DNA from: Phormidesmis priestleyi Ana
Lineage (GTDB): Bacteria; Cyanobacteriota; Cyanobacteriia; Phormidesmidales; Phormidesmidaceae
DNA length: 64,000 nt
Assembly (NCBI GenBank): GCA_001314865.1
Contig: LJZR01000007.1
Coordinates: 62,001-126,000 of the forward strand
Direction of reading: 5' to 3'
Shown: positions 2,206-62,895 of the stretch, in pieces
Layout: every line of letters starts with the position of its first letter
Numbering within the stretch: position 1 is the first letter of the stretch
Notes under the pieces: generated by a model
What the model was told of the DNA's origin: nothing
Database searches by the model: none
What the model saw: only the letters and a program-made list of their open reading frames with translations
Made by a program: the position numbers and the translations under genes

Positions 2206-5200
2206 ATGGCTTTTGTAGGTTTGCACATTCATAGCGACTACAGCCTGCTAGATGGTGCTAGCCATATTGATCCGCTGGTGGATCGGGCATTAGAGTTGGG
2301 CATGAATGCGATCGCGCTAACCGATCACGGTGTCATGTACGGTGCCATTGAGCTGCTTAAGGTGTGCAAAAAGAAGGGCATTAAGCCCATTATTGGCAAC
2401 GAGATGTACGTGATTAACGGCGACATCACCAAGCAGGAAAAGCGACCCAAATACCATCAGCTCGTACTCGCCAAAAATGACGTCGGTTACAAAAACCTAG
2501 TAAAGCTCACCACCATCTCTCACTTAGAAGGCGTCCAGGGCAAAGGCATTTTTTCGCGCCCCTGCATTAACAAGGCCTTGCTAGAGCAATACCACGAAGG
2601 CTTGATCATTACCAGTGCTTGCCTGGGCGGCGAAATTCCTCAAGCCATTCTTAAAAGTAGACTGGATGTCGCCAGAAAAGTCGCACAGTGGTACAAAGAT
2701 TTGCTGGGTGACGACTTTTATTTAGAGATTCAAGACCATGGCTCGCCCGAAGATAGAATCGTTAATGTTGAACTGGTTAAAATTGCCGCAGAATTAAACA
2801 TTAAAGTTGTTGCGACGAACGACTCTCACTTTATCTCCTGCGTGGATGTAGAAGCCCATGACGCGCTGCTGTGCATTCAAACCGGCAAGCTGATTACAGA
2901 AGATAAGCGACTTCGCTACAGCGGCACAGAGTATTTAAAGTCTGAAACCGAAATGTGTCGCCTGTTTCGCGATCATCTCTGTGAAGAAGTCATTGCCGAT
3001 GCGGTAGCTCGCACGCAGGAAGTTGCCGACAAGGTTGAGACTTACAACATTCTCGGAAATCCCCAAATTCCTAATTTTCCCATCCCGGAAGGCTACACCA
3101 AAGAGACTTATATGGCCAAGGTGGCGCGAGATGGCCTCGTTGATCGAATGCGCCTTGAAAGCTATGACGAGCTGACAGATGAGTATCGCGATCGCATGGA
3201 ATATGAGATCGAAATGATGCATCAGATGGGCTTTGCCACCTACTTTTTAGTCGTGTGGGACTACATCAAATTTGCCCGCGACAACAATATTTCAGTGGGC
3301 CCTGGGCGAGGGTCAGCAGCGGGCTCCCTAGTGGCCTATGCCATGGGCATTACTAATATTGATCCGGTGCATCACGGCTTGTTATTTGAGCGGTTTCTCA
3401 ACCCCGAGCGTAAATCAATGCCTGACGTCGATACCGACTTCTGTATTGATCGCCGGGGAGATGTGATTGATTATGTTACCGAAAAATATGGCACCGACCA
3501 TGTTGCGCAAATCATCACCTTTAACCGGATGACTTCCAAAGCGGTGCTCAAAGACGTCGCTCGCGTGTTGGATATTCCCTACAACGAGTCAGATAAGCTC
3601 GCCAAACTGATTCCGGTTTCAAGAGGCAAGCCCGCCAAGCTCAAGGTTATGATTTCTGACGAGACGCCCTCGACAGAGTTCAAAGAAAAATACGACAGCG
3701 GTGAGCTTATTCCCGGTACAGCGGTGACATTTCAACGATGGATTGACACGGCCATTACCATTGAAGGCACCAACAAAACCTTTGGAATGCATGCGGCGGG
3801 TGTGGTGATTTCTGAGCAGCCGCTAGACACCATTGTGCCGTTGCAGCGCAACAACGATGGGTCTGTCATTACGCAGTACTACATGGAAGATGTAGAAGCC
3901 ATTGGCCTGCTGAAGATGGACTTTTTGGGGCTGCGCAACCTCACTATGATTCAAAAAGCGGTGGATCATATCGAAACTCGACATCAAGATATAAAAATTG
4001 ATCTTGATAATCTGCCATTGGACGATCCAGCCACTTATGAGTTGCTCGCCGGAGGAGAGCTCGCCGGTATATTTCAGCTAGAGTCCTCCGGAATGCGACA
4101 GATCGTAAAAGAGCTCAAACCTTCTGGTTTAGAAGATATCTCTTCAGTGCTAGCCCTTTATCGTCCGGGGCCGCTAGATGCAAAATTGATTCCCAAGTTT
4201 ATTGATCGCAAGCATGGCAGAGAGAAAATTGAATATGCTCACGATATTCTCAAGCCGATATTAGAAGAGACTTACGGGATCATGGTCTATCAAGAGCAGA
4301 TCATGAAAATTGCCCAAGAGCTAGCAGGGTATTCGCTGGGGAAAGCAGACCTGCTGCGCAGAGCGATGGGCAAAAAGAAAATAGACGAAATGGAAAAGCA
4401 TCGGGAAGACTTTATTGCCGGGGCGGGTGTAAATAACTTTCCGCGTAAGTCTGCGAACGATTTGTTTGAACAAATGGTTAAGTTCGCCGAGTATTGCTTC
4501 AATAAGTCTCATTCGACTGCCTACGGATTTGTCACCTTTCAGACGGCCTATTTAAAAGCTCACTATCCGGTTGAGTATATGGCTGCGCTGCTCACAGCCA
4601 TTAGCGGCGACCAAGACAAAGTACAAATGTACATTGCCAGTTGCCTATCTATGGGCATTCAGGTTTTGCCGCCGGATGTAAACCGCTCAGGTGTAGACTT
4701 TACGCCGTTGGATAATCAGATTCTCTTTGGCCTGTCGGCTGTGCGTAACTTAGGCCTCGGTGCGATTGAGGCGATAGAAAAGTCTCGGAACGAGAGTGGG
4801 CCGTTTAAGTCGTTGGCGGATTTGTGCGATCGCGTAGACCTTCGCGCCGTTAACAAGCGAGCCCTTGAAGCCCTTATCCTTTCAGGTGCCTTCGAGAGTA
4901 TTGAGCCCAATCGCCAGCAGCTCATGCATGATCTTGAACTCGTGGTTGACTGGGCTCAAGCGCGCGCTAAAGACCGCGAAGTTGGCCAGGGCAGTATTTT
5001 TGACATGCTCTCAGCGGCTACGCCCACCGCGAGTCAATCCGCGAGTCAATCCGCCAATTCGCTCCCCGCCTTTGAATCAGCGCCTAAAGCCCCTCCCGTT
5101 GCCGACTACGATCCCCAGGAGCGCCTGAAGTTAGAAAAAGAGCTTTTGGGTTTCTACATTTCTGATCATCCGCTCAAAAACGTTCAGCGTTCCGCCAAAA

Positions 5201-5757
5201 TTCTTGCACCTATCAGTTTGGCCGAGCTTGGCGATCAGCCAGAAAAAGTGACGCTGAGCGCAATCGTCATGCTGAGCACTGTTAAACCGGTCACCACTAA
5301 AAAAGGAGACTCTATGGCTGTGCTGCAAATGGAAGACTTAACGGGTCACTGCGAATCTGTTGTGTTTCCCAAAGCGTACGCCCGCATTGGCCAATATATA
5401 AAACCCGATGCTCGCCTCATGGTGTGGGGCAAAGTAGACCGTCGCGATGATCGGGTACAGATGATTATTGACGATGCGGAGCCGCTAGAGACAGTACGTA
5501 TGGTCATGTTGGATTTAGACCCTTCGATTGCTGGAGATATTGAACAGCAGTATCGCTTGCGTAACGTGCTCAAGGTACTGCAAGGCGAAGACAAATTTGC
5601 CGCTAAAACACCGGTAATCGCGATGATTCGAACCAGAGATCATCAACAAGCGGTTCGACTAGGCTCCCAGTTTAGAGTACAGAATGCTGAAGCCGCCGTA
5701 GCGGCCCTTCAAGCAGCGGCCTTTAGAGCTAGAGCCACGCCTCTCCTAAGCGTTTAA
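2206..5757 (+). CDS. dnaE: DNA polymerase III subunit alpha, uninterrupted
   Basis: The replicative DNA polymerase catalytic subunit has 1183 residues, slightly longer than the E. coli protein. The N-terminal PHP domain shows HIHSDYS and ALTDHG. The polymerase active-site aspartates are visible in PDVDTDF (D407, D409) and KMDFLG (D572). A tHhH/OB-fold C-terminal part follows (residues ~1010-1090, ITL-like strand pattern ending ESVVFPKAY). In many cyanobacteria this gene is split by a trans-splicing intein at the AEY|CFNKSH junction. Here that junction (C764) is intact, so the gene is contiguous and intein-free at this site. A short duplicated ASQS linker lies near residues 942-952. The gene appears to be monocistronic. 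Confidence 0.98.
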
Positions 5758-5800
5758 ATATTGAGTACTCAAATATTGAATGCTTAAATGTTTAATTTTC
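5756..5800. repeat. 15-bp repeat starting inside the dnaE stop codon
   Basis: AAATATTGAGTACTC (5756-5770) begins at the second base of the dnaE TAA. It is followed directly by the near-copy AAATATTGAATGCTT (5771-5785) and the weaker AAATGTTTAATTTTC (5786-5800). Confidence 0.65.
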
Positions 5801-5929
5801 ATACTCGGATTTTTTATACCCAGATTTTTTATACCTAGCTAAAGGTATATAACTGTCTATTTCAATAAACTGTCTGTTTGAATACCTAAATATTTAACCC
5901 CCTCAATGTTTGAATGCCTCAATAAATCT

Positions 5930-6094
5930 CTCTCATCCTCTAATCTCTCATCCTCTAATCTCTCATCCTCTAATCTCTCATCCTCTAATCTCTCATCCTC
6001 TAATCTCTCATCCTCTAATCTCTCATCCTCTAATCTCTCATCCTCTAATCTCTCATCCTCTAATCTCTCATCCTCTAATCTCTCATCCTCTAAT
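5930..6094. repeat. Perfect 15-bp tandem array, 11 copies
   Basis: The unit CTCTCATCCTCTAAT is repeated head to tail 11 times without visible variation and without spacers, which excludes a CRISPR array. Two of the three forward frames stay open through it (LSSSN and SHPLI), but no ribosome-binding site or sensible protein surrounds them, so I treat it as non-coding. Perfect identity suggests recent expansion. Confidence 0.95.
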
Positions 6095-6140
6095 GAGTTC
6101 GTATGGCCTAATGCATATGGCCTACATTAGGTAGGCTAAC

Positions 6141-6188
6141 TACTTTATGCAAGTTAAGTGCTTTATGCAAGTTAAGTACTTTATGCAA
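6141..6188. repeat. 18-bp tandem repeat, 3 copies
   Basis: TACTTTATGCAAGTTAAG is followed by a copy with one change and by a third, partly diverged copy. It is non-coding. Confidence 0.75.
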
Positions 6189-14903: not shown

Positions 14904-16106
14904 ATGAACATACTGCTAACCATACATGAAACCATGGGCCTAAACTCAGGCGCAGCCGGTAGTACGCTTCGGCTGGGTGAAACTTACCAACAGCTAGGTC
15001 ATGAGGTGAGCTATTTCTCGATTGACAACCTACCAAAAGCGTTTCAAAAGCTCCCTTTTTATCTCAGAAAGCTAGTATTTCCTGAGTTTTTAGCGGCCTA
15101 TTTAGTCAACCGCAGGGCTCGATCTTTTGATGTCATTGATGCTTCTACCGGCGATGCTTGGCTGTGGGCCGCGATTTCATCAACTCTCTCACGCATGAGA
15201 AAAATATCGCCGTTGCTGGTTACTCGCAGTCATGGGCTAGAGCATATTTATCACCATCAATATTTGGCCGAAGCTCAGCGGGCCATTCATCAGCCTAGCT
15301 GGCGCTATCGGTTTTACCGAGGTGGGCTACAGCTGTGGGAAGTAGCGCGATCGCTCAAAGCTGCCGATCAAATTTTTGTGCTCAACCAGCATGAAAAAGA
15401 CTATATTTCACAGCACCTTAGCGTCCCGGCGGCAAACATTTATCGCGTTAAAAACGGTATGCCGTCGCAGTTCATGCAGCGCCCCTTTGAGCCTGCATTA
15501 ACCCTGCCAAACGAACCTTTGCGGATTGCGCAGGTAGGTGCTTACGATCCCCGCAAAGGTGTGCAGTATAGTGTGCCTGCCCTCAACCGCTTACTGGTTC
15601 GCTATCCCTACTTAGAGGTGAGTTTTTTGGGTACGGCCTGTAGCCTGTGTCCTGATGCCGAGCGGGTATATGCCGACTTTGATCCGGCGGTTCGCGATCG
15701 CGTCACCGTCATTCCCCACTATTCACATGAACAGCTGCCCGAGCTGCTCAAAGGACACCACATTAAGCTGTTTCCGACTCTATGCGAGGGATTTAGTAAG
15801 GCCCTGATTGAAGGTATGGCCTGCGGACTAGCGCCGGTCACGACTTATTCACCTGGCCCGGCTGATGTGGTTCGCCATGGGCTCGATGGGTTAATGATGC
15901 CCGTGCGAGACGAAGAGGCCATTGAGCGAGCATTAACAGAATTGATTTGCGATCGCACCTTGCTTCACGAACTCCGCCAAAACGCCTATGCAACTGCTCA
16001 ACAATACAGTTGGGAGAGTGCTGCGCGACAGCGGCTATCGCTATATGCCGAAGGTTTAAACAACAAAAGCATGAAAGCCACTCGCTTATCTGTTTCTCAT
16101 CTGTAA
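14904..16106 (+). CDS. Glycosyltransferase family 4
   Basis: The start was placed at ATG 14904 (MNILLTIHETMGLNSGAAG), where the GT-B N-terminal strand begins, giving 400 residues. Sequence upstream in the same frame looks like the repeat tail of hepA read in another frame. The C-terminal half shows VGAYDPRKGVQY, FPTLCEGFSKALIEGMACG (the EX7E region) and VTTYSPGPADVV, typical of GT4 retaining enzymes. It is part of the locus and presumably adds one sugar of the repeat unit. Donor and linkage are unknown. Confidence 0.85.
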   Translation: MNILLTIHETMGLNSGAAGSTLRLGETYQQLGHEVSYFSIDNLPKAFQKLPFYLRKLVFPEFLAAYLVNRRARSFDVIDASTGDAWLWAAISSTLSRMRKISPLLVTRSHGLEHIYHHQYLAEAQRAIHQPSWRYRFYRGGLQLWEVARSLKAADQIFVLNQHEKDYISQHLSVPAANIYRVKNGMPSQFMQRPFEPALTLPNEPLRIAQVGAYDPRKGVQYSVPALNRLLVRYPYLEVSFLGTACSLCPDAERVYADFDPAVRDRVTVIPHYSHEQLPELLKGHHIKLFPTLCEGFSKALIEGMACGLAPVTTYSPGPADVVRHGLDGLMMPVRDEEAIERALTELICDRTLLHELRQNAYATAQQYSWESAARQRLSLYAEGLNNKSMKATRLSVSHL

Positions 16107-16122
16107 ACCCATTTTCTGTTAT

Positions 16123-16164
16123 TTATTCTCTGCAATTTATTCTCTGCAATTTATTCTCTGCAAA
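16123..16164. repeat. 14-bp tandem repeat, 3 copies, in the leader of the GT2 gene
   Basis: TTATTCTCTGCAAT is repeated twice exactly and once with a changed last base. The array ends about 20 bp before the start codon of the next glycosyltransferase, so copy number would alter the leader length. Confidence 0.85.
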
Positions 16165-16185
16165 TCTATTCACAGGTAATTTGCG

Positions 16186-18903: not shown

Positions 18904-20223
18904 ATGAAAGTACAAATTTTTGAACAATTTCACGGCGGGCATTACACCACCTATATCCAGCACTTGCTGCCTCAACTTTTAGCGCAAGGGCACGAAGTGG
19001 TGGTCACTCTCACCGCACAGCATCGGGCTTCCAGTGCATTTGTGCAGCAATTGTCCGCCTATGAGGAGGCTGTTCGCTTTGATACTCAGCTTGCTGAGGT
19101 TGATCCTCACATTGCGCTGAATCCTCAGTATGTGCTTCGCCATCCGCGCTCAGGTCTGGCCTCTGTTAAGCGACTCTCAAAATTAGTCACAGGCCTGGTA
19201 GAGGCGGTTTGGCGTGAGCAGCCCGATTGTTTGATCGTAACAACTGCTGATTTGCAAAACATGCTGATGGCGTTTTACAAAAGACTACGGCAGCCTTTGT
19301 TTCCGCCCCATACTCGCACAATTGGGATATTTCATTATGGCTACAGCGGCGCGGTTGAAACGGTGAGCGATCGCCTCAAAAGCTGGATCTATCAAAAAAC
19401 TTGGCAGCAGTCACCGTTCGACCATCTGTTGCTGGTAAACCCCGTCGCTTATGAATGGGTCAAACAGCACGATTCTCATCTGGCCTCGCGCATATCTCTT
19501 GCCGCCGATCCGGTGGCGTCCTTACAGCCCTTTACCCAAGCTGCCGCCCGTCAGCGTTTAGGACTGGCCACTGAAGGTCGATATATTGGCTTTGTCGGCG
19601 CGATGGATCACCGAGTGGCTATTCCTGAACTGGTGGCTGCCTACCGCAAGCTGCTGCTAGATGAGAAAACTTCGCTGCTTGGCCCATTCATCAGCGATGG
19701 CGTAGCCAATTTGCAACAAACTCGCCTACTGCTAGCAGGCAAACTACACCCCGACTACAAGACCCATATTTTGGCCCACCAGCAAGATCTTATCGACGCG
19801 GGCCGACTCATTTTAATGGATCGCTACCTTAGCGTTGAAGAACTCTGTGCAGGCTACCAGGCACTTGATCTTATTACGCCGCTTTATTACAAAAAACCAA
19901 ATCTCTCTGCCAACTTACTAAAAGCAGTCATGGCAGAGCGCCCTGTAATCGTCAATGACTTTGGCTATACCGGCATGATGACAAAAAGATTCAGGTTAGG
20001 TTGGGCCTGTGATGTCCTCAATTCAGATGATTTAACCCAAACATTGCAGCAAGCGTTAACAGGGCATATCAGCTATGCACGGCCAGAAATATTGAGACTC
20101 AAACAGTTTCATACGCCTGAAAACTACGCCGCTACGGTCCTAAAAGCCATGCATCCCCAGCCTTCGGTCTACCGACCAACACCCTCTAAATCTTGGCAGT
20201 GGGTAACTGCCGCTGCCCCATAG
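18904..20223 (+). CDS. Glycosyltransferase-like protein (GT-B, family uncertain)
   Basis: This 439-residue protein starts MKVQIFEQFHGGHYTTYI, a typical first Rossmann strand with a Gly-rich loop. The second half has IGFVGAMDHRVAIPELV, LLLAGKLHPDY and a C-terminal acceptor/donor segment (YKKPNLSANLLKAVMAERPVIVNDFGYTG in shorter pieces) like that of GT-B enzymes. The usual EX7E motif is not clear, so I call it a glycosyltransferase-like protein. The last codons and the stop lie in a 14-bp tandem repeat. Confidence 0.7.
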   Translation: MKVQIFEQFHGGHYTTYIQHLLPQLLAQGHEVVVTLTAQHRASSAFVQQLSAYEEAVRFDTQLAEVDPHIALNPQYVLRHPRSGLASVKRLSKLVTGLVEAVWREQPDCLIVTTADLQNMLMAFYKRLRQPLFPPHTRTIGIFHYGYSGAVETVSDRLKSWIYQKTWQQSPFDHLLLVNPVAYEWVKQHDSHLASRISLAADPVASLQPFTQAAARQRLGLATEGRYIGFVGAMDHRVAIPELVAAYRKLLLDEKTSLLGPFISDGVANLQQTRLLLAGKLHPDYKTHILAHQQDLIDAGRLILMDRYLSVEELCAGYQALDLITPLYYKKPNLSANLLKAVMAERPVIVNDFGYTGMMTKRFRLGWACDVLNSDDLTQTLQQALTGHISYARPEILRLKQFHTPENYAATVLKAMHPQPSVYRPTPSKSWQWVTAAAP

Positions 20224-20253
20224 AAGCTGCCCCATAGAAGCTGCCCCATAGAA
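20212..20253. repeat. 14-bp repeat x3 that duplicates the gene end and its stop codon
   Basis: GCTGCCCCATAGAA occurs three times exactly (20212, 20226, 20240). The first copy contains the last codons (Ala-Ala-Pro) and the TAG stop of the preceding glycosyltransferase, so the duplicated unit carries the stop codon. Confidence 0.95.
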
Positions 20254-20265
20254 ACAATCTTGAAA

Positions 20266-21384
20266 ATGCGAATTCTGCATCTCCTAAATCACATTCAAAA
20301 TATTGGCAATGGCATTGTCAATGTTGCTATCGATCTTGCCTGTTTGCAAAGTAAATCAGGTCATGTCGTGGCGATCGCAGCTGGGCAAGGAACCATAGCC
20401 GAACGTTGTGATCATGAAACCTACCAACCACTGCTAACAACCTATGGCGTCCACTACTACGACCTCAATCAAAAGAGAAAATTTGCCAATTTATTACAGA
20501 CGGTTGGTCAATATCGACAGATTATTCAAGACTTTCAGCCCGACATCGTACACACTCACATGATGACAGGCGTTGTGCTGGCCAAAGCACTGCGTTTAGG
20601 CAGCGCTTATCGGATTGTCTCTACTGTTCATAACGAGTTTCAGCGCAGCGCTACGCTGATGGGACTAGCCGATCAGGTCATTGCCGTTAGCGATGCGGTC
20701 GCTACGGCTATGCACCAGCGAGGTCTCCCCCGCCACAAACTAACAGCCATTCGCAATGCCACCATTGGCAGTCCCCGACAACGACCCCTACAGTCTTACG
20801 AGCCTTTGCCGCTAGTGCGACCTGCAATTACCACAGTGGCAGGGCTGACTCCTCGTAAAGGCATTGCAGATCTGATTGAAGGATTTAATCAGGTTGCCGC
20901 AACCTCAACCGCGCACCTTTATATCGTAGGAAATGGGCCAAGCAAGGCACAATTTGAGGCGCAAGCGCGGGCCAGTCCATTTGCGTCGCGCATCCATTTT
21001 GAAGGGTTTCAGCCCGAGCCTCAGCGCTATTTACGCTCGACAGATATTTTTGTTTTGGCCTCACGCAAAGAGCCGTTTGGCTTGGTTTTAGTAGAAGCTA
21101 GAGAGGCCGGATGTGCGATTGTTGCTAGCCGCGTAGATGGCATTCCAGAAGCCCTAGATGGTGGGGCCGCAGGGTTACTCACAGAGCCGGGAAATAGTGA
21201 TTCTATTGCCGCAGCGTTAAGGAAATTATTAGAAGACGCAGACAGTTTAAAGAGGCTAAAAAAACGGGCTCAGCAAAATCTTGAAGGTCTTAAAGTTGAG
21301 CGTATGAACAGTGAGGTTTTAGCTTTATATGCTTCGGTTTTGAAAAACGCTTTGGAATCGCAAAGCGAACCATCTAATGACTGA
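20266..21384 (+). CDS. Glycosyltransferase family 4
   Basis: The protein has 372 residues when started at ATG 20266 (MRILHLLNHIQNIGNGIV); a TTG two codons earlier is possible. The GT-B fold shows HTHMMTGVV in the N-domain, VAGLTPRKGIADLIEGF and VGNGPSKAQFE in the C-domain, and the EX7E motif in RKEPFGLVLVEAREAG. It is a retaining sugar transferase of the polysaccharide locus with unknown donor. The 3' end overlaps the next gene by 8 bp, which suggests a single transcript with coupled translation. Confidence 0.88.
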   Translation: MRILHLLNHIQNIGNGIVNVAIDLACLQSKSGHVVAIAAGQGTIAERCDHETYQPLLTTYGVHYYDLNQKRKFANLLQTVGQYRQIIQDFQPDIVHTHMMTGVVLAKALRLGSAYRIVSTVHNEFQRSATLMGLADQVIAVSDAVATAMHQRGLPRHKLTAIRNATIGSPRQRPLQSYEPLPLVRPAITTVAGLTPRKGIADLIEGFNQVAATSTAHLYIVGNGPSKAQFEAQARASPFASRIHFEGFQPEPQRYLRSTDIFVLASRKEPFGLVLVEAREAGCAIVASRVDGIPEALDGGAAGLLTEPGNSDSIAAALRKLLEDADSLKRLKKRAQQNLEGLKVERMNSEVLALYASVLKNALESQSEPSND

Positions 21385-22678
21385 ACAAACGGCTCTCGAA
21401 CAAATGGCTCTCGAACAAACGGCTCTTAAACAAATGGCTCTTAAACAAATGACTCTCGAACAAATGACTCTCGAACAAATGACTCTTGAGCAAATGACTC
21501 TCGAACAAATGGCTGAAGAAACTGGCGACGAGCGGTCAAAAAAGCATGTTGCTTGCTTTATCCCCAACTTGGACGGAGGCGGTGCAGAGCGCGTGATGAT
21601 TCATTTATCGGAAGGGTTTGTCCATCGTGGATGGCGGGTTGATTTGGTGGTAGACCAAGTTACGGGTGCTTATGCGAGTAAGATTCCTCACACGATAAAA
21701 CTCATTGATTTACAAGCGCGATCGCACCTTCCGGCTAAGAGAACATTGCCTCAAATTATCACCAAAACCCTAGCTCTCAGGCGCTATCTTCGCGACTATC
21801 AGCCCGATGTTTTAATCACCACCCTAGATGTTGTGAATGCTGCCTCTTGGGCGCAACGTTTAGCGGGCGTTTCCACAAAAGTTATTATGGTGGTTCAAAC
21901 TCATTTGTCTCAGCAGTTTAGCGATCGCCATTCTGCCACCGTTCAAAAAGTGCGATCGCAAATTGTAAAATACTGCTATCCTTGGGCCGATCAAATCGTC
22001 GCTGCCTCCCAAGGTGTTGCCGACAACGTTGCGGCCATGATGGATATCTCGGCTGATCAAATTCGAGTCATTTACAACCCAGTTGTGCGTCCTGATCTTG
22101 CAACTAAAGCCGCTGAACCGATAGATCATCCTTGGTTTGTTGAAGGCGAAGTGCCCGTACTGCTGGGAGCCGGTCGGCTAGTCAAGCAAAAAGACTTTGC
22201 CACGTTAGTTCGCGCTTTTGCCCAAGTGCGTCAGCAGCGGCCCTGTCGGCTGGTTATTATCGGCGATACTGACGAGCGCGAGGCCCATATCAAGCCCGCC
22301 CTAGAACAGATGATTCAGGCGCTAAACCTACAGACAGACGTGACTTTTTTGGGTTTTGTTGAAAACCCTTACAAGTATATGGCTCGCGCTCAAGTGTTTG
22401 TTTTATCTTCTATTTACGAGGGTTTTGGCAATGTGGTCGCTGAAGCGCTATCGGTCGGCACCTCTGTTGTTGCGACCGACTGCGAAAGCGGCCCTTCTGA
22501 AATTTTGGCTCAAGGCCAGTTTGGGCATCTCGTTCCTGTGAAAGACCCCAACGCTTTGGCCGCGGCCATTATCGCTACGCTAGATCAGCCGCAGCCGCCC
22601 GAACAGCTCAAAAGCCGCGCCCGAGACTTTACCATCGACACCATTGTGGATCAGTATTGCCAAGTGATGGCCTCATGA
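21377..22678 (+). CDS. Glycosyltransferase family 4 with N-terminal LEQMT repeats
   Basis: The product has 433 residues. The first ~48 residues are a run of about nine pentapeptides of the form (T/A)LEQM or (A)LKQM, encoded by 15-bp DNA repeats and predicted to form a helix or coil. The enzyme proper starts near HVACFIPNLDGGGAERVMIHL and shows GAGRLVKQKDFATLV, FLGFVENPY and the EX7E motif SSIYEGFGNVVAEALS, standard for GT4. If translation started further in, the repeat would be a leader, but the 8-bp overlap with the upstream gene favours the full length. The 3' end overlaps the next gene by four bases (ATGA). Confidence 0.87.
   Translation: MTEQTALEQMALEQTALKQMALKQMTLEQMTLEQMTLEQMTLEQMAEETGDERSKKHVACFIPNLDGGGAERVMIHLSEGFVHRGWRVDLVVDQVTGAYASKIPHTIKLIDLQARSHLPAKRTLPQIITKTLALRRYLRDYQPDVLITTLDVVNAASWAQRLAGVSTKVIMVVQTHLSQQFSDRHSATVQKVRSQIVKYCYPWADQIVAASQGVADNVAAMMDISADQIRVIYNPVVRPDLATKAAEPIDHPWFVEGEVPVLLGAGRLVKQKDFATLVRAFAQVRQQRPCRLVIIGDTDEREAHIKPALEQMIQALNLQTDVTFLGFVENPYKYMARAQVFVLSSIYEGFGNVVAEALSVGTSVVATDCESGPSEILAQGQFGHLVPVKDPNALAAAIIATLDQPQPPEQLKSRARDFTIDTIVDQYCQVMAS
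21380..21513. repeat. 15-bp in-frame tandem repeat at a gene start (LEQMT)
   Basis: About nine units of the type CTCGAACAAATGACT lie directly after the start codon of the glycosyltransferase. They are slightly diverged from each other, alternating ATG/ACG and CTC/CTT. Confidence 0.92.
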
Positions 22679-36014: not shown

Positions 36015-36442
36015 AGGGCGCTTTACCAAAGTGAGGTTAAAGTGTGAGGTTAAAGTGAGGCTGTTGTGTCGCTTTTGCAGCTACACTGGTGCAACTAGTT
36101 GCAGCCAGTTGCATGCAGCCAGTTGTGGCCACACTTAGATACTGGTTTAACAACTGTTTCAACTTTAGCCTTCTACCTAGAGGCAGGCATCCCTATGAAA
36201 TATGGAGAGAGCTTGGCTGATATTCTCACCGGCCTCCAAGCTGCTGATCTCCCAACTGTTGATCTCCTAACTGCTCTTTAACCAACCTGCTCTTTAACCA
36301 ACCTGCTCTTTAACCAACCTGCTCTTTAACCAACCTGCTCTTTAACCAACCTGCTCTTTGAACTAATCTCTAAACTTAAGAAGGCAGCATGAAGTCACCC
36401 TGAACCAACAGGGTTTGGCAGCTTCGGTTTGCGGCCGCTGGT
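36015..36442. other. Gap with three sets of tandem repeats
   Basis: No gene is seen in this 428-bp interval. It holds GTGAGGTTAAAGT units (about 36032-36060), GCAGCCAGTTGCAT-type units (about 36096-36124) and the six-copy 16-bp array at 36271-36366. Confidence 0.7.
36271..36366. repeat. 16-bp tandem array, 6 copies
   Basis: CTGCTCTTTAACCAAC is repeated five times exactly, plus a sixth diverged copy ending CTTTGAACTAA. There are no spacers. The array lies in non-coding DNA. Confidence 0.93.
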
Positions 36443-36771: not shown

Positions 36772-36814
36772 GATCTCGAACTACAGATCTCGAATTACCG
36801 AATCTCGAACTACA
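36772..36814. repeat. 14-15-bp repeat covering the allA stop codon
   Basis: GATCTCGAACTACA, GATCTCGAATTACC and GAATCTCGAACTACA follow one another. The stop codon of the ureidoglycolate lyase gene (CTA on the plus strand, 36810-36812) lies in the last unit, so the other copies carry duplicated stop-codon sequence. Confidence 0.8.
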
Positions 36815-37316
36815 AAATCTCAAATTCAACCCCGTAGGTTTGCACAAGGTTGCAGGTGGTGTGGTCTACCACATTCGTATCACTCAACTCTAGGTTGTAA
36901 AAGTTAACAGTGTCACCATCAAAATAGGGACCCGCGTGCCAGGTGCCGACTTCTAGCTTGACAAAGCAGCTGCCCGGAATTTTAAACACTTGAATATCTT
37001 CTAGCTGGGGCAAGGCGCTTTCGCTGGGGGGCGCAACGCCCAAAAACCATGTTTTCCCGTCTAAAGCACCCAGGCATTGAGTGCATCCGCTGTGCCTAGT
37101 AATTTGGTGGAACCTTCTGCCGCGCTGCTGGAGCTGCATAATGTAAAACCGAGGCGTGCCGTTTTGTAGCTGTAACTGAGCGTCTTGCTCGTTGAAAGGG
37201 ATGTCGTCGGGCTGGGGATAAATGACCTGGCCGAATCGGCTGAAGGTTTCGGGTGTGATCTCAATGGCTGAGATCGTCTGAGTGGTGGGAGTTGGGGATA
37301 AAAAAGAGCGGCTCAT
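36810..37316 (-). CDS. Ureidoglycolate lyase family protein (AllA)
   Basis: The product has 168 residues (ATG 37316; a GTG 18 bp upstream is possible). Family motifs are the cupin-like block THxCTQ-type TRHSGCTQCLGALDGKTW, FLGVAPP and VGTWHAGPYF. AllA enzymes split ureidoglycolate to glyoxylate and urea in purine breakdown. The gene is divergent from an aminotransferase that can use glyoxylate, so a shared role in glyoxylate metabolism is plausible but unproven. Other allantoin-pathway genes are not in the window, and this family also has members of unknown function in cyanobacteria. Confidence 0.75.
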   Translation of the reverse strand: MSRSFLSPTPTTQTISAIEITPETFSRFGQVIYPQPDDIPFNEQDAQLQLQNGTPRFYIMQLQQRGRRFHQITRHSGCTQCLGALDGKTWFLGVAPPSESALPQLEDIQVFKIPGSCFVKLEVGTWHAGPYFDGDTVNFYNLELSDTNVVDHTTCNLVQTYGVEFEIL

Positions 37317-45882: not shown

Positions 45883-47535
45883 ATGACCCTCAAGCGTATT
45901 GTCCTGTCTTTTTTAACGTTGATTGTGGCATTGCAAATGGGCGCTTCGCTCATCGGCAGCCTGGGGGAGCCACAGGTCGGAAATCAGCTACAGCTATACC
46001 AAACTGACCTGCTGGTGCAGGCTAGCAGCTGGGATGGCAGTGGCCTACCGGAGAATGAAGTGCAGCAGTTTCGCAGCGCTGTGTTTGGCGAAAATGCGCT
46101 TGAAAGTGCAACCGAGCAATATTTAGAAGTGCGTCAAGATTCGGCTACTGGGCTATTGCGCTTGCAAAAGCAGCTGGCAGATTCACCGCGACCGAATGGT
46201 CAATCACAACAGCCGGATGGCCAATTAGCAGATCCAGCAGACCCAGCAGACCCAGCAGACCCAGACAGTTCTGTATCAGCGGCTAATGCCCAAGCCAATG
46301 CCCAAGCCAATGCCCAATTGATGGCGATCGCCCAAAGCCAGCAGCAGCTAATCGAGCAGGTGGATCTACGGCTGGGGCTGTTGAAAGTGGCGCAGGGTGA
46401 AGTGGATGAGGCGATCGCAACTTGGCAGCGTATTACGGCCAACGCAGGCCCACAAGCGACAGCGGCCAGCGTATTGATAGACCTTTGGCAAACGCCACCT
46501 GTCCTTAGACCCCAGACGCCCTTAGTCATTGACAACGCGCTGAAAGGATGGCTGCATGATAGTGCCTTGGAGCGGCTGTATACCCTAGAAAATAAGACCG
46601 ACCCGTTGGCGCAGCTACAGCAGGAAAAACGCGATCGCGCAGAACAAAAGCTGATTCAGCTCAGCATTGTAGGGCTACTGCCTTCTTTTGGTGGGCTGTT
46701 GGGTACCGCTGGCCTGATTGCCCTGGTCGGTCAACGGGTGCTCAAAGGGAAGGGGGCTGTTTTGGCCGTGCCTGAAGGACAGTGGGAAGTGCCCTGGGAC
46801 TGGGAGGTCATCTGGCAGGTCGTGGTAGGGGGGTTCTTATTTGTCGGGCAAATTGCGCTGCCGCTGATGCTGCGGCTAGGATTGGATATCAGTCAGTCGC
46901 TGCGAATGGCGCAGGAAGTGGCTTTTGCCAATGCAGACTGGGCCTTGGCGCTCACCAGCCGAGGTAAAGCGCTGTACTCATTAGTGTTTTATTTATTAAT
47001 GGCGGTTAGCACTTTGGGGGTGCTGTATTGGTCAATCAGGCCCTATTCGCCGCTGCCTAAAGACTGGTTTCGGATCAGGCTAGGGGGCAAATGGCCGCTG
47101 TGGGGCCTGGGTAGCTACCTCATTGCGCTGCCGCTCATGCTGGCAATTTCACTGCTTAATCAACAACTATGGCAGGGACAAGGCGGCAATAACCCAATTT
47201 TGCAGCTAGTGCTAGAAGAGCGCGACCCTGTGGCGCTTGGCATGTTTTTCTTTACGGCAGCGGTCGCTGCACCCGTGTTTGAAGAAATTTTGTTCAGAGG
47301 TTTTTTACTGCCCTCTTTAACGCGCTATATGCCCATTTGGGGAGCCATTGGCCTAAGCAGCCTAATTTTTTCAGCGGCGCATTTAAGTTTTTCAGAGGTA
47401 TTGCCGCTGACAGTATTGGGGACGATTTTAGGGTTTGCTTATGTGCGATCGCAAAATCTACTGTCTTCAATTTTGCTGCACAGCACCTGGAACAGCGTCA
47501 CGATGCTTGGCTTGTTCTTGTTAGGCAGTAGCTAA
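45883..47535 (+). CDS. CPBP-family intramembrane glutamic endopeptidase with long N-terminal region
   Basis: The product has 550 residues. A signal-anchor-like N-terminus is followed by a ~200-residue extracytoplasmic region with two low-complexity runs (PADPADPAD and NAQANAQANAQ) and a TPR-like helix pair (GLLKVAQGEVDEAIATWQRI, split). The C-terminal half has multiple membrane spans and the protease core: EEILFR (E467, E468, R472), H500 in SAAHLSF and H533 in LLHSTWNS. CPBP proteases process prenylated or membrane-linked proteins or act in peptide immunity. The substrate here is unknown. The gene end lies in a repeat that contains the stop codon. Confidence 0.88.
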   Translation: MTLKRIVLSFLTLIVALQMGASLIGSLGEPQVGNQLQLYQTDLLVQASSWDGSGLPENEVQQFRSAVFGENALESATEQYLEVRQDSATGLLRLQKQLADSPRPNGQSQQPDGQLADPADPADPADPDSSVSAANAQANAQANAQLMAIAQSQQQLIEQVDLRLGLLKVAQGEVDEAIATWQRITANAGPQATAASVLIDLWQTPPVLRPQTPLVIDNALKGWLHDSALERLYTLENKTDPLAQLQQEKRDRAEQKLIQLSIVGLLPSFGGLLGTAGLIALVGQRVLKGKGAVLAVPEGQWEVPWDWEVIWQVVVGGFLFVGQIALPLMLRLGLDISQSLRMAQEVAFANADWALALTSRGKALYSLVFYLLMAVSTLGVLYWSIRPYSPLPKDWFRIRLGGKWPLWGLGSYLIALPLMLAISLLNQQLWQGQGGNNPILQLVLEERDPVALGMFFFTAAVAAPVFEEILFRGFLLPSLTRYMPIWGAIGLSSLIFSAAHLSFSEVLPLTVLGTILGFAYVRSQNLLSSILLHSTWNSVTMLGLFLLGSS

Positions 47536-47597
47536 GCCAGTAGCTGAATCACTTGCTAAGCCAGCAGCCAAGTCAGTAGCTGAATAAGTTGCTAAGT
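47525..47597. repeat. Degenerate repeat containing the protease gene's stop codon
   Basis: GCAGTAGCTAAG (with the TAA stop at 47533-47535) is echoed by CCAGTAGCTGAA, TTGCTAAG, CCAGCAGCCAAG, TCAGTAGCTGAA and TTGCTAAG. The copies make a compound tandem repeat of ~12-bp units just behind the gene. Confidence 0.7.
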
Positions 47598-47724: not shown

Positions 47725-49419
47725 ATGCCTTCTAAGAAAGACACCCTCAAAGCAGTTTGGAGCCGATATCGCCAAGAATATCTAAATCTTGTCACCGATT
47801 TAGAACAAATGGTTGTCGTGGTGCCGAGCGATATCACAGATCTTCGGTTAAAGATAGCAGACGATCCCGCTGTACTGAACTTAGCCAAGCAGGCCATTCA
47901 TACCTTAAAAGGCGCACTGGGTAGCTTTGGGTTTAGGGAGCTTTCTGGGGCTTCAGCTCAGGCTGAAAGGCTCATTTCTACTGCTGCTCAGCTCACGGGC
48001 GAACAGATCTGGCAGCTCAGCGAGCTAATCGCGCAGCTACGATCTACGCTAGAAGCCGCCTCAGACCCCGCCTCGGCCACCCTTGCGCTCAAAGATCTGA
48101 CCAGGCAGTCCTCAAAGAGTTGTGACTGGCTGATTGTCAGTTGCGATATGGAACTCACTGAAGATGTGATTCACCAGTCTTCGGTGTGGCGGTTAGATAC
48201 TCGCGTGGCGACTACTGCATCAGAAGCCTGGGCGGTACTCAGCCAGCACTCGCCGGACGTCATTGTGCTGGATCTTGACTGCATTCTCGACTGTGTTGAT
48301 GAGCCTTGCGGGCTCGACTTTTTACATGAGCTAATGCTTCAGCATCCTACGGTCTCTACGATTGTGATGAGTGCGCATGATTCGCTGAGCGATCGCATTC
48401 AGGCCATTCGCGCGGGCGCTTGCACCTTCTTAGCAAAGCCCGTAACGTCGGTTCAGGTGGTAGAAACGGTGACAAATCGGCTGGCCCAGCGAACACAGCC
48501 TACCGCTCGTATTGTCGCCCTAGATGATGATCCTGCTATTTTATTGGGTTTGAAGCGATTGCTCACACCGTTAGGATTTCAGCTTACGCTTGTGTCAGAC
48601 CCGCTACAGCTGTGGGAGGCCATTGAGAAAACGGTGCCCGATTTGCTCATTCTGGATATTGAAATCCCTGAATTTAGCGGTATAGAGCTTTGTAAAGTCA
48701 TTCGTAGCGACCCTAAGCTGGCCCAGCTGCCCATTTTGTTTTTATCGGCCCACAGCGATGCTGAAATGGTTTCTCAGGTATTTGAATGCGGCGCTGATGA
48801 CTATGTCAGCAAGCCGATTGTAGGCCCCGCGTTGGTGACTCGCATATTAAACCGGATGGAGCGACGGCGGCTACTGCAAAAGCTGGCAGAAACGGATGAC
48901 CTGACGGGGCTCAGTCGCAGGCGACAAGCGGTGGAGGTACTAGAGCGATCGCTCAAACTCGCCTCTCGGCAAAAAACAACTGTGTGCTTAGCCATTTTGG
49001 ATCTAGACGACTTTAAACAAATCAACGACCACTACGGACATGAGATCGGAGACAAGGTATTAAAAACGCTAGGCGACTATCTACGACAAACCTTTAGAGG
49101 AGAAGATATCGTGGCGCGCTGGGGCGGAGAAGAATTTATGGTGGGCCTGTATGGTACGCCGAAAAACATTGCCGTTGAAAGATTGGAACGATTTTTACGT
49201 GCGTTTTTTCAACATATTTTTCAGGGCGTTTTGCAGGGCAACAATCAGCAGCGCTTTCAGGTGAGCTTTAGCGGCGGCGTAGCGGTTTATCCAACCGATG
49301 GAACCAGCGTACAGCAGCTTTATCGCTGCGCCGACCAAGCATTATACCAAGCCAAAGCCGCTGGCCGTAGTCGCATTCTGCCAGCAGAATCTACCCAGAG
49401 CAGTTGCTTAGAGGGCTAG
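47725..49419 (+). CDS. HPt-receiver-receiver-GGDEF diguanylate cyclase
   Basis: The product has 564 residues. The order of domains is an HPt domain (phospho-His H59 in AIHTLKGALGSFG), a first receiver (~134-250), a second receiver (~262-380) and a GGDEF domain (~390-555). The second receiver is complete (D267-D269, D311, S341, K363). The first lacks the usual acidic pair (LIVSCDM) although it keeps a phospho-Asp candidate (D183/D185) and K238, so it may be a non-phosphorylated pseudo-receiver. The cyclase has GGEEF (467-471) and an inhibitory RxxD site (R458, D461) five residues before it. It should make c-di-GMP under phosphorelay control. Confidence 0.92.
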   Translation: MPSKKDTLKAVWSRYRQEYLNLVTDLEQMVVVVPSDITDLRLKIADDPAVLNLAKQAIHTLKGALGSFGFRELSGASAQAERLISTAAQLTGEQIWQLSELIAQLRSTLEAASDPASATLALKDLTRQSSKSCDWLIVSCDMELTEDVIHQSSVWRLDTRVATTASEAWAVLSQHSPDVIVLDLDCILDCVDEPCGLDFLHELMLQHPTVSTIVMSAHDSLSDRIQAIRAGACTFLAKPVTSVQVVETVTNRLAQRTQPTARIVALDDDPAILLGLKRLLTPLGFQLTLVSDPLQLWEAIEKTVPDLLILDIEIPEFSGIELCKVIRSDPKLAQLPILFLSAHSDAEMVSQVFECGADDYVSKPIVGPALVTRILNRMERRRLLQKLAETDDLTGLSRRRQAVEVLERSLKLASRQKTTVCLAILDLDDFKQINDHYGHEIGDKVLKTLGDYLRQTFRGEDIVARWGGEEFMVGLYGTPKNIAVERLERFLRAFFQHIFQGVLQGNNQQRFQVSFSGGVAVYPTDGTSVQQLYRCADQALYQAKAAGRSRILPAESTQSSCLEG

Positions 49420-49464
49420 ACAGGCTGGCTATATAGTCTGGCTATATAGGCGGCTGGCTAGATA
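49414..49464. repeat. Degenerate GGCTATATAG/GGCTAGATAG repeats at the cyclase gene end
   Basis: GGCTAGACA (containing the TAG stop) is followed by GGCTATATAGTCT, GGCTATATAGGC and GGCTAGATAG, another short repeat starting at a stop codon. Confidence 0.6.
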
Positions 49465-55545: not shown

Positions 55546-56142
55546 ATCTACACCCGCCCCCTTGCCAAACTTATTGAAGAATTTCAGCGTCTTCCCGGTA
55601 TTGGCCCCAAGTCAGCTCAGCGGCTTGCCATGCACATGCTCAAGCGCCCCGAAGCAGAAGTGCGAGCCCTCGCGAATGCCTTAGTCGCTGCCAAGCAGCA
55701 GGTCGGCCAGTGCTCCCAGTGCTTTCATCTCTCTGCCGAGCCTGTCTGTGATATTTGTCGCTCCCAGGCCCGTGACCCTAACACCATTTGCGTGGTGGCC
55801 GAGTCACGAGACGTGATTGCGTTGGAAAAAACCCGTGAGTACAAGGGCAAGTACCATGTTTTAGGCGGCCTTATTTCACCGATGGATGGCATTGGCCCTG
55901 AGCAGCTCAACGTCGGTCAGCTCATCCATAGAGTGAATAAAGAAGGCACCAGCGAGGTGATTTTAGCCATTAGCCCGAGCATTGAAGGTGACACGACGAC
56001 CCTATATGTCGGCCAGCTTCTCAAGCCCTTTACCCGAGTCACTCGCATCGCCTTTGGCTTACCGATGGGCGGCGACCTAGAATATGCCGATGAAGTGACC
56101 CTTGCCAGAGCCCTTGAAGGGCGACGCGAGCTAGACAGCTAG
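55546..56142 (+). CDS. recR: Recombination protein RecR, ATC start inferred
   Basis: The product has 198 residues when read from ATC 55546 ([25 protein letters not shown]). An in-frame TAA lies 15 bp upstream with no ATG, GTG or TTG between, while AAGGAG (55532-55537) sits 8 nt before the ATC. The first ATG (55630) would remove the helix-hairpin-helix ([15 protein letters not shown]), essential for DNA binding. The zinc finger CSQC...CDIC and the Toprim domain ([28 protein letters not shown]) are complete. RecR acts with RecF/RecO in loading RecA. An 8-bp repeat CTAGACAG covers the stop codon. Confidence 0.93.
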
Positions 56143-56154
56143 ACAGCTAGACGC
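56131..56154. repeat. 8-bp repeat x3 covering the recR stop codon
   Basis: CTAGACAG (56131), CTAGACAG (56139, contains the TAG stop) and CTAGACGC (56147) follow one another. Confidence 0.85.
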
Positions 56155-56206
56155 TTGAGCGGTCGTCAGGCATTTCATTGACGTAACCGCAGTGATATAA
56201 CCGAAT

Positions 56207-62491: not shown

Positions 62492-62519
62492 CCTGGCCTT
62501 AAAAACCTGGCCTTAAAAA
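62492..62519. repeat. 14-bp repeat x2 covering the DUF423 stop codon
   Basis: CCTGGCCTTAAAAA (62492-62505 and 62506-62519) on the plus strand. The stop codon of the minus-strand DUF423 gene (TTA, 62513-62515) lies in the second copy, so the first copy carries a duplicate. Confidence 0.85.
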
Positions 62520-62887
62520 ATAGAGCGGCTTGTCCAGGCCAGCAAACACCAGCCCATGATGAAGGCAACGCCGCCCAGCGGGGTAACAGGGCCGAGCGCT
62601 TTGATATTGCCCAGGCTCAAACCATATAAGCTGCCCGAAAAAAGCACGACGCCTGCAACGAAGCTCCAGCCCACAGCGACTAGGTTTTTTGCGTTAGGAT
62701 ACTGCGCAATTAGCGCTGCGACAACTAATAGTGCGATCGCATGATACATCTGGTAGCGAACCCCAGTTTCAAAGCTATTTAAGGCGGTTTCGGTGAGCCG
62801 ACCTTTGAGCGCATGTGCGCCAAACGCGCCGCCCGCGACAGATAGTGCGCCCAATAGGGACGCGATCGCAAAAAATAACCGAGCCAT
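62513..62887 (-). CDS. DUF423 family membrane protein
   Basis: The product has 124 residues (ATG 62887; a TTG two codons upstream is possible). Four hydrophobic spans carry the family pattern GAFGAHALKG and YQMYHAIALL, ending GPVTPLGGVAFIMGW. DUF423 proteins are small membrane proteins of unknown function, found in most bacteria. The gene begins 8 bp after the stop of the upstream minus-strand gene, so the two are likely co-transcribed. Confidence 0.85.
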   Translation of the reverse strand: MARLFFAIASLLGALSVAGGAFGAHALKGRLTETALNSFETGVRYQMYHAIALLVVAALIAQYPNAKNLVAVGWSFVAGVVLFSGSLYGLSLGNIKALGPVTPLGGVAFIMGWCLLAWTSRSIF

Positions 62888-62895
62888 CAGCAACG

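Follow-up and report, generated by a model that had tools for sequence, protein, structure and literature searches.

Short tandem duplications that span stop codons in Phormidesmis priestleyi Ana probably persist because proteins are left unchanged

Introduction

The glycosyltransferase-like gene at 18904–20223 of a 64,000-nucleotide stretch of Phormidesmis priestleyi Ana DNA (hereafter the window) has its TAG stop codon (20221–20223) inside an exact tandem array of three 14-bp units, so that the protein terminates within the first unit. The gene matches the Pfam family Glyco_trans_4_4 below the curated cut-off only, and a homologue sought in six congeners was not found. A reading of the window made from the sequence alone had listed seven genes whose stop codons are included in such arrays, and proposed either that selection tolerates a duplicated end plus stop, as the protein is unchanged, or that a process linked to replication or termination creates arrays at these positions. 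Why, then, do tandem arrays and stop codons coincide so often? Short tandem repeats in prokaryotes are of a known kind; it is their frequency and recurrence here that are noteworthy.

Material and methods

The sample comprised 1.39 Mb (23%) of the 5.93-Mb genome. Genes were called with our own simple Markov coding model, which yielded 1,016 genes; stop positions are firm for real genes, as the choice of start is irrelevant to them, while start positions are less certain. Arrays were detected with Tandem Repeats Finder (TRF) at a score cut-off of at least 40, and their number was compared with that in a dinucleotide-resampled copy of the sampled sequence. For random placement, arrays were thrown into non-coding DNA in 200 runs, with an overlap of no more than one unit allowed with a gene. 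Genes missed in long intergenic stretches may lower the intergenic baseline and so inflate the random-placement ratio, a problem from which comparison with the adjacent 3′ flank is free. Isolated exact two-copy duplications were taken as the youngest class of arrays. Six congeners (G001–G006) were compared, with one genome per species; for a given array the comparison shows presence or absence.

Results

Arrays at gene ends in the window

All seven of the listed arrays were confirmed, and in each (7/7) the gene's own stop codon lies inside. Those of the glycosyltransferase-like gene, recR and the DUF423 gene are exact, and those of the dnaE, CPBP, cyclase and lyase genes are degenerate, with a match of 65–85% within the dnaE, CPBP and cyclase arrays. 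Together with a further, weak array, they are as follows:

5754–5800, forward strand: dnaE (2206–5757, stop 5755–5757); 15 bp, degenerate
16100–16171, forward strand: second glycosyltransferase gene; weak TRF array, 28 bp, touching the stop at 16104–16106
20212–20253, forward strand: glycosyltransferase-like gene (18904–20223); GCTGCCCCATAGAA, 14 bp × 3.0, exact
36772–36821, reverse strand: ureidoglycolate lyase-like gene (stop 36810–36812); 14–15 bp × 3, degenerate
47526–47596, forward strand: CPBP protease-like gene (45883–47535, stop 47533–47535); 12/36 bp, degenerate
49414–49455, forward strand: response-regulator/GGDEF (cyclase) gene (47725–49419, stop 49417–49419); 13 bp, degenerate
56129–56152, forward strand: recR (55630–56142); AGCTAGAC, 8 bp × 3, exact
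62492–62519, reverse strand: DUF423 gene (62513–62893, stop 62513–62515); 14 bp × 2, exact

At the second glycosyltransferase gene, the exact part of the array (14 bp × 3.1, 16121–16163) begins 15 bp past the stop. What the DUF423 array duplicated is the native stop: the orthologue in G005 is without an array and has an identical local end (...atttttTAA). The lyase-like protein ends in FEIL* here and in FEIV* in most orthologues, and the CPBP protease-like protein ends in LGSS* here as against LGSGS* in relatives.

The window holds other arrays besides these. The region 3′ of dnaE (5754–6188) is a chain of mutually unrelated arrays, one of them exact (15 bp × 11.1, 5929–6094), and an exact intergenic array of 16 bp × 5.6 (36271–36359) lies beside a second one at 36236–36275. 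Two intragenic 15-bp arrays of about 8–9 copies each (466–594 and 21383–21514) have a period that is a multiple of three, and so encode amino-acid repeats.

Arrays are enriched at stops and depleted at starts

Tandem arrays are abundant in the sampled DNA, with 1,186 in 1.39 Mb compared with 17 in the resampled copy. A stop-containing array was found at 119 of the 1,016 genes (11.7%, about one in eight), and the unit usually repeats the final bases of the gene itself together with the stop. Of the 789 arrays that extend into a gene by no more than one unit, 104 include a stop and only seven a start. Random placement in non-coding DNA predicted 32.0 stops (s.d. 5.2, maximum 46 in 200 runs) and 33.5 starts (s.d. 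5.4, minimum 22). The same pattern holds for arrays with 100% match (24 stops versus 7.2 expected; one start versus 7.4). The sequence-only reading had suggested a repeat search and a comparison with random positions; carried out here on 23% of the genome, this bears out its claim that stop overlap exceeds what random placement predicts.

Arrays cover about 0.26 of the sequence in roughly the first 60 bp of 3′ flanks and 0.018 of coding sequence; in 5′ flanks coverage is 0.03 next to the start, rising to about 0.13–0.17. Proximal array edges are most frequent between −15 and −1 bp of the stop and all but disappear further into the gene, which they enter by up to one unit and hardly ever by more. 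This depth limit of one unit is the point where a duplication ceases to be protein-neutral. Periods divisible by three account for 96% of arrays inside genes, 39% of intergenic arrays and 31% of those that span a stop. Isolated exact intragenic duplications are commonest in the first 30 bp of genes (0.54 versus about 0.08 per kb elsewhere), where miscalled starts are perhaps part of the reason.

Comparison with congeners and other cyanobacteria

Stop arrays at dnaE are found in three species of the genus, the present one included (G003, 14 bp × 3; G001, 14 bp × 2); they are mutually unrelated, each built from that species' own gene end. The DUF423 gene likewise has stop arrays in three species (here, G003 and G002), which are different and formed separately. 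Among 201 reciprocal best pairs, orthologues mostly terminate at the same codon whether an array is present or absent, and the C-terminal tail has the same length in 48% of cases where only this genome has an array, 83% where only the relative has one and 40% where neither does. Both members of a pair carry an array in five of the 201 pairs, slightly above the 1.8 or so expected from the marginals, with dnaE counted twice. The units are unrelated in all five, which indicates that the arrays arose separately. The arrays are thus duplications of native gene ends that have arisen repeatedly and independently.

Arrays are denser here than in the best-sampled congeners: about 850–880 per Mb in the sampled stretches of this genome, against about 290 (G001), 310 (G003) and 400 (G002). 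Smaller congener samples are uneven, at 110 (G006) and 820 per Mb (pooled G004/G005 pieces). More distant cyanobacteria have 120–320 arrays per Mb, with stop arrays at 0–3% of genes. Three Cyanobium-like genomes (L170:1665, L178:4309 and L182:7244) share a closely similar two-copy 14-bp repeat of the TCTGGCCGACTGAT type that contains the stop of apparently the same gene and is seemingly conserved, unlike the arrays of the present genus.

The duplication process

Isolated exact non-coding duplications have periods of 9–17 bp with a peak at 11–13 bp, longer ones being rare; array periods as a whole peak at 11–15 bp. For 135 of 207 young non-coding duplications, the repeat runs on for no more than 2 bp after the second copy, as would be expected without flanking homology. 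The remainder extend at least 3 bp and are possibly homology-assisted or remnants of longer arrays. Classical slippage at flanking direct repeats would predict several bp of such homology at new duplications. No clear breakpoint consensus emerged in the 88 blunt duplications searched for a motif. The units consist of local sequence, containing the gene's own last codons, and all 777 non-coding units are distinct, so they form no dispersed repeat family. Cyanobacterial STRR and LTRR sequences are short head-to-tail intergenic repeats, STRRs being dispersed families of a few heptamers. The present arrays resemble them in their head-to-tail order in intergenic DNA and differ from STRR families in their distinct units; a dispersed family, whether of the STRR/LTRR or the TAACTGA type, was rejected on this ground.

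Ku-dependent end joining with fill-in was also rejected, as no match to Ku (PF02735) was found in the genome, which is 98.8% complete. A MutS-type domain is present in the genome, and the DNA polymerase III alpha subunit encoded in the window is of the cyanobacterial type (PRK07374). Non-coding array units are depleted in CG, and none of them contains the HIP1 core CGATCG (12 expected); the window holds 82 HIP1 palindromes.

A probable combination of duplication and purifying selection

We consider that the arrays are best explained by local tandem duplication of 9–17 bp throughout the genome combined with purifying selection that leaves the protein-neutral products, and put the probability of this reading at about 0.78. 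A local mutational process would duplicate 9–17 bp head to tail anywhere in the genome, mostly without flanking homology; slippage would later add or remove copies, and substitutions would blur them. Purifying selection would then leave mainly multiples of three inside genes and next to nothing just 5′ of start codons. From one unit 5′ of the stop outward, the protein would be unchanged and duplications could persist, often with the stop inside the array. A minority would arise before the stop and shift the frame, leaving the gene to end at a stop that the array provides, as at recR. Duplications most likely survive at gene ends because the protein is unchanged there, and the pattern would be due to selection, not to a mutation rate that varies with position. 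The enzymology may involve slippage of the polymerase or the re-joining, without Ku, of nicks that lie close together. The earlier suggestion of tolerance agrees with the one-unit limit on array edges, the shared end codons of most orthologues and the predominance of multiples of three within genes.

Is the stop itself a target?

The main competing explanation is that duplication is focused on stops by an event at the end of transcription or translation, such as an R-loop, a nick or a polymerase collision where ribosomes leave the message. When all TRF arrays are counted, the stop zone (the first unit) holds 68 against 43.9 expected from the 40 bp of 3′ flank that follow it (p = 0.003). Array density forms a gradient with its peak at the stop, and does so in convergent regions as well, and stop codons differ in how often they bear arrays (TAG 65/390, TAA 43/429, TGA 13/197; chi-square p = 0.0005), with TAG ahead. 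The youngest class, isolated exact duplications, speaks against such a hotspot, with nine in the stop zone compared with 7.8 expected from the rate at 0–39 bp of the flank (p = 0.42). An earlier count of these in 1.09 Mb had pointed the other way, with 12 events at −12 to −3 (2.2 per kb versus 1.3 in the flank). A test on exact runs gave 16 against 16.2; it is biased against stop overlap where the first copy has diverged, and the two tests above took its place. In-frame duplications were not clearly more frequent in the final 100 bp of genes (eight events; 0.03–0.21 versus 0.06–0.09 per kb elsewhere).

Taken together, nine against 7.8 for isolated duplications and 68 against 43.9 overall make survival the main effect, with a residual 1.5-fold excess of all arrays in the stop zone that is modest and unexplained. 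This excess may be partly sequence preference: CTAG is enriched 1.9-fold and ACTAG 3.1-fold in non-coding array units, in keeping with the bias towards TAG stops. The replication- or termination-linked process of the sequence-only reading is not needed, and a hotspot at stops, at most a weak one, seems to us improbable. We would also give only a small chance, if a shade better, to a stronger account in which the genus has an active, homology-independent process of 11–15-bp duplication. It would run about three times hotter here than in the congeners sampled best, with a bias to gene ends (TAG-containing sequence where transcripts or translation end), and would recurrently rewrite 3′ ends.

Selection for back-up stops, in which the duplicated copy would halt ribosomes that have read through or shifted frame, is very unlikely. 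Stops in all three frames are met within 60 nt at 53% of array-bearing ends compared with 32% of array-free ends, but this is the mechanical result of repeating a stop. Periods relate to multiples of three as they do in intergenic arrays (39/119 versus 246/661, p = 0.41), and the leaky TGA is the codon that least often bears an array. In a systematic study, moreover, eubacteria gave no evidence of selection for additional 3′ stops (PMC6764699).

It is still less probable that the arrays function as 3′ elements such as terminators or RNA-binding sites. Their position just after genes would suit such a role, as would the statement that cyanobacteria are without Rho and that canonical termination explains a minority of their operons (PMC13289151). 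However, arrays show no extra folding (z −0.76 versus −0.91, p = 0.49) and fewer T-runs (0.10 versus 0.18), their units all differ, and orthologues in congeners often have no array.

A stop made by the array at recR

The recR array does contain the stop in an exact 8 bp × 3 repeat, as first described, but it did not duplicate the native one. It lies 5′ of the inherited stop, and the 8-bp duplication shifts the frame and creates the TAG at 56140–56142. The gene now ends GAG CTA GAC AGC TAG, and what is left of its former end (GAC GCT TGA) lies at 56150–56158. The predicted RecR protein accordingly ends in ELDS, compared with ELDA, ELDT or ELEA in congeners. Including cases of the recR type, 14 of 107 stop arrays (about 13%) reach more than 1.1 units into the gene; these are array-born stops or coding repeats rather than duplicated native stops. 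Such frame-shifting duplications near the end can hardly be the general case, since about 87% of stop arrays have the stop in the first unit, where frame cycling would be expected to give depths of anything up to three units, and most orthologue comparisons show the native end codon retained.

Discussion

The arrays described here have the features of locally duplicated prokaryotic repeats: head-to-tail copies above chance, local units and, inside genes, periods in multiples of three. A close likeness is to the tandem repeats of Borg extrachromosomal elements, which likewise begin inside the ends of open reading frames (PMC9879509). Borg repeats are described there as perfect, A-enriched units of 18–21 nt on archaeal elements, whereas we observe duplications of 9–17 bp on a bacterial chromosome, many of them degenerate and with CTAG-enriched units. 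Direct repeats of the heptamer TAACTGA in Beggiatoaceae and some cyanobacteria include 13 sets that overlap stops and are confined to protein ends (PMC4679880). Those repeats consist of one fixed heptamer and lie mostly 5′ of starts; here the units all differ and starts are avoided. Small tandem duplications in mammals, made by fill-in of staggered breaks, are similarly short and independent of template homology (PMC8355091), but that pathway requires CST, Pol alpha-primase and Ku-dependent end joining, and no Ku match was found here.

Duplication with selective survival makes gene ends a natural readout of short-duplication mutagenesis. Whatever its length, a duplication that takes in the stop is neutral for the protein, so the sizes found in the stop zone are an almost unfiltered record of the process, while those on the coding side are a filtered one. 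Repeats annotated automatically at gene ends need not mean regulation, and recR shows that recurrent duplication is able to shift a gene's last codon and its 3′ flank.
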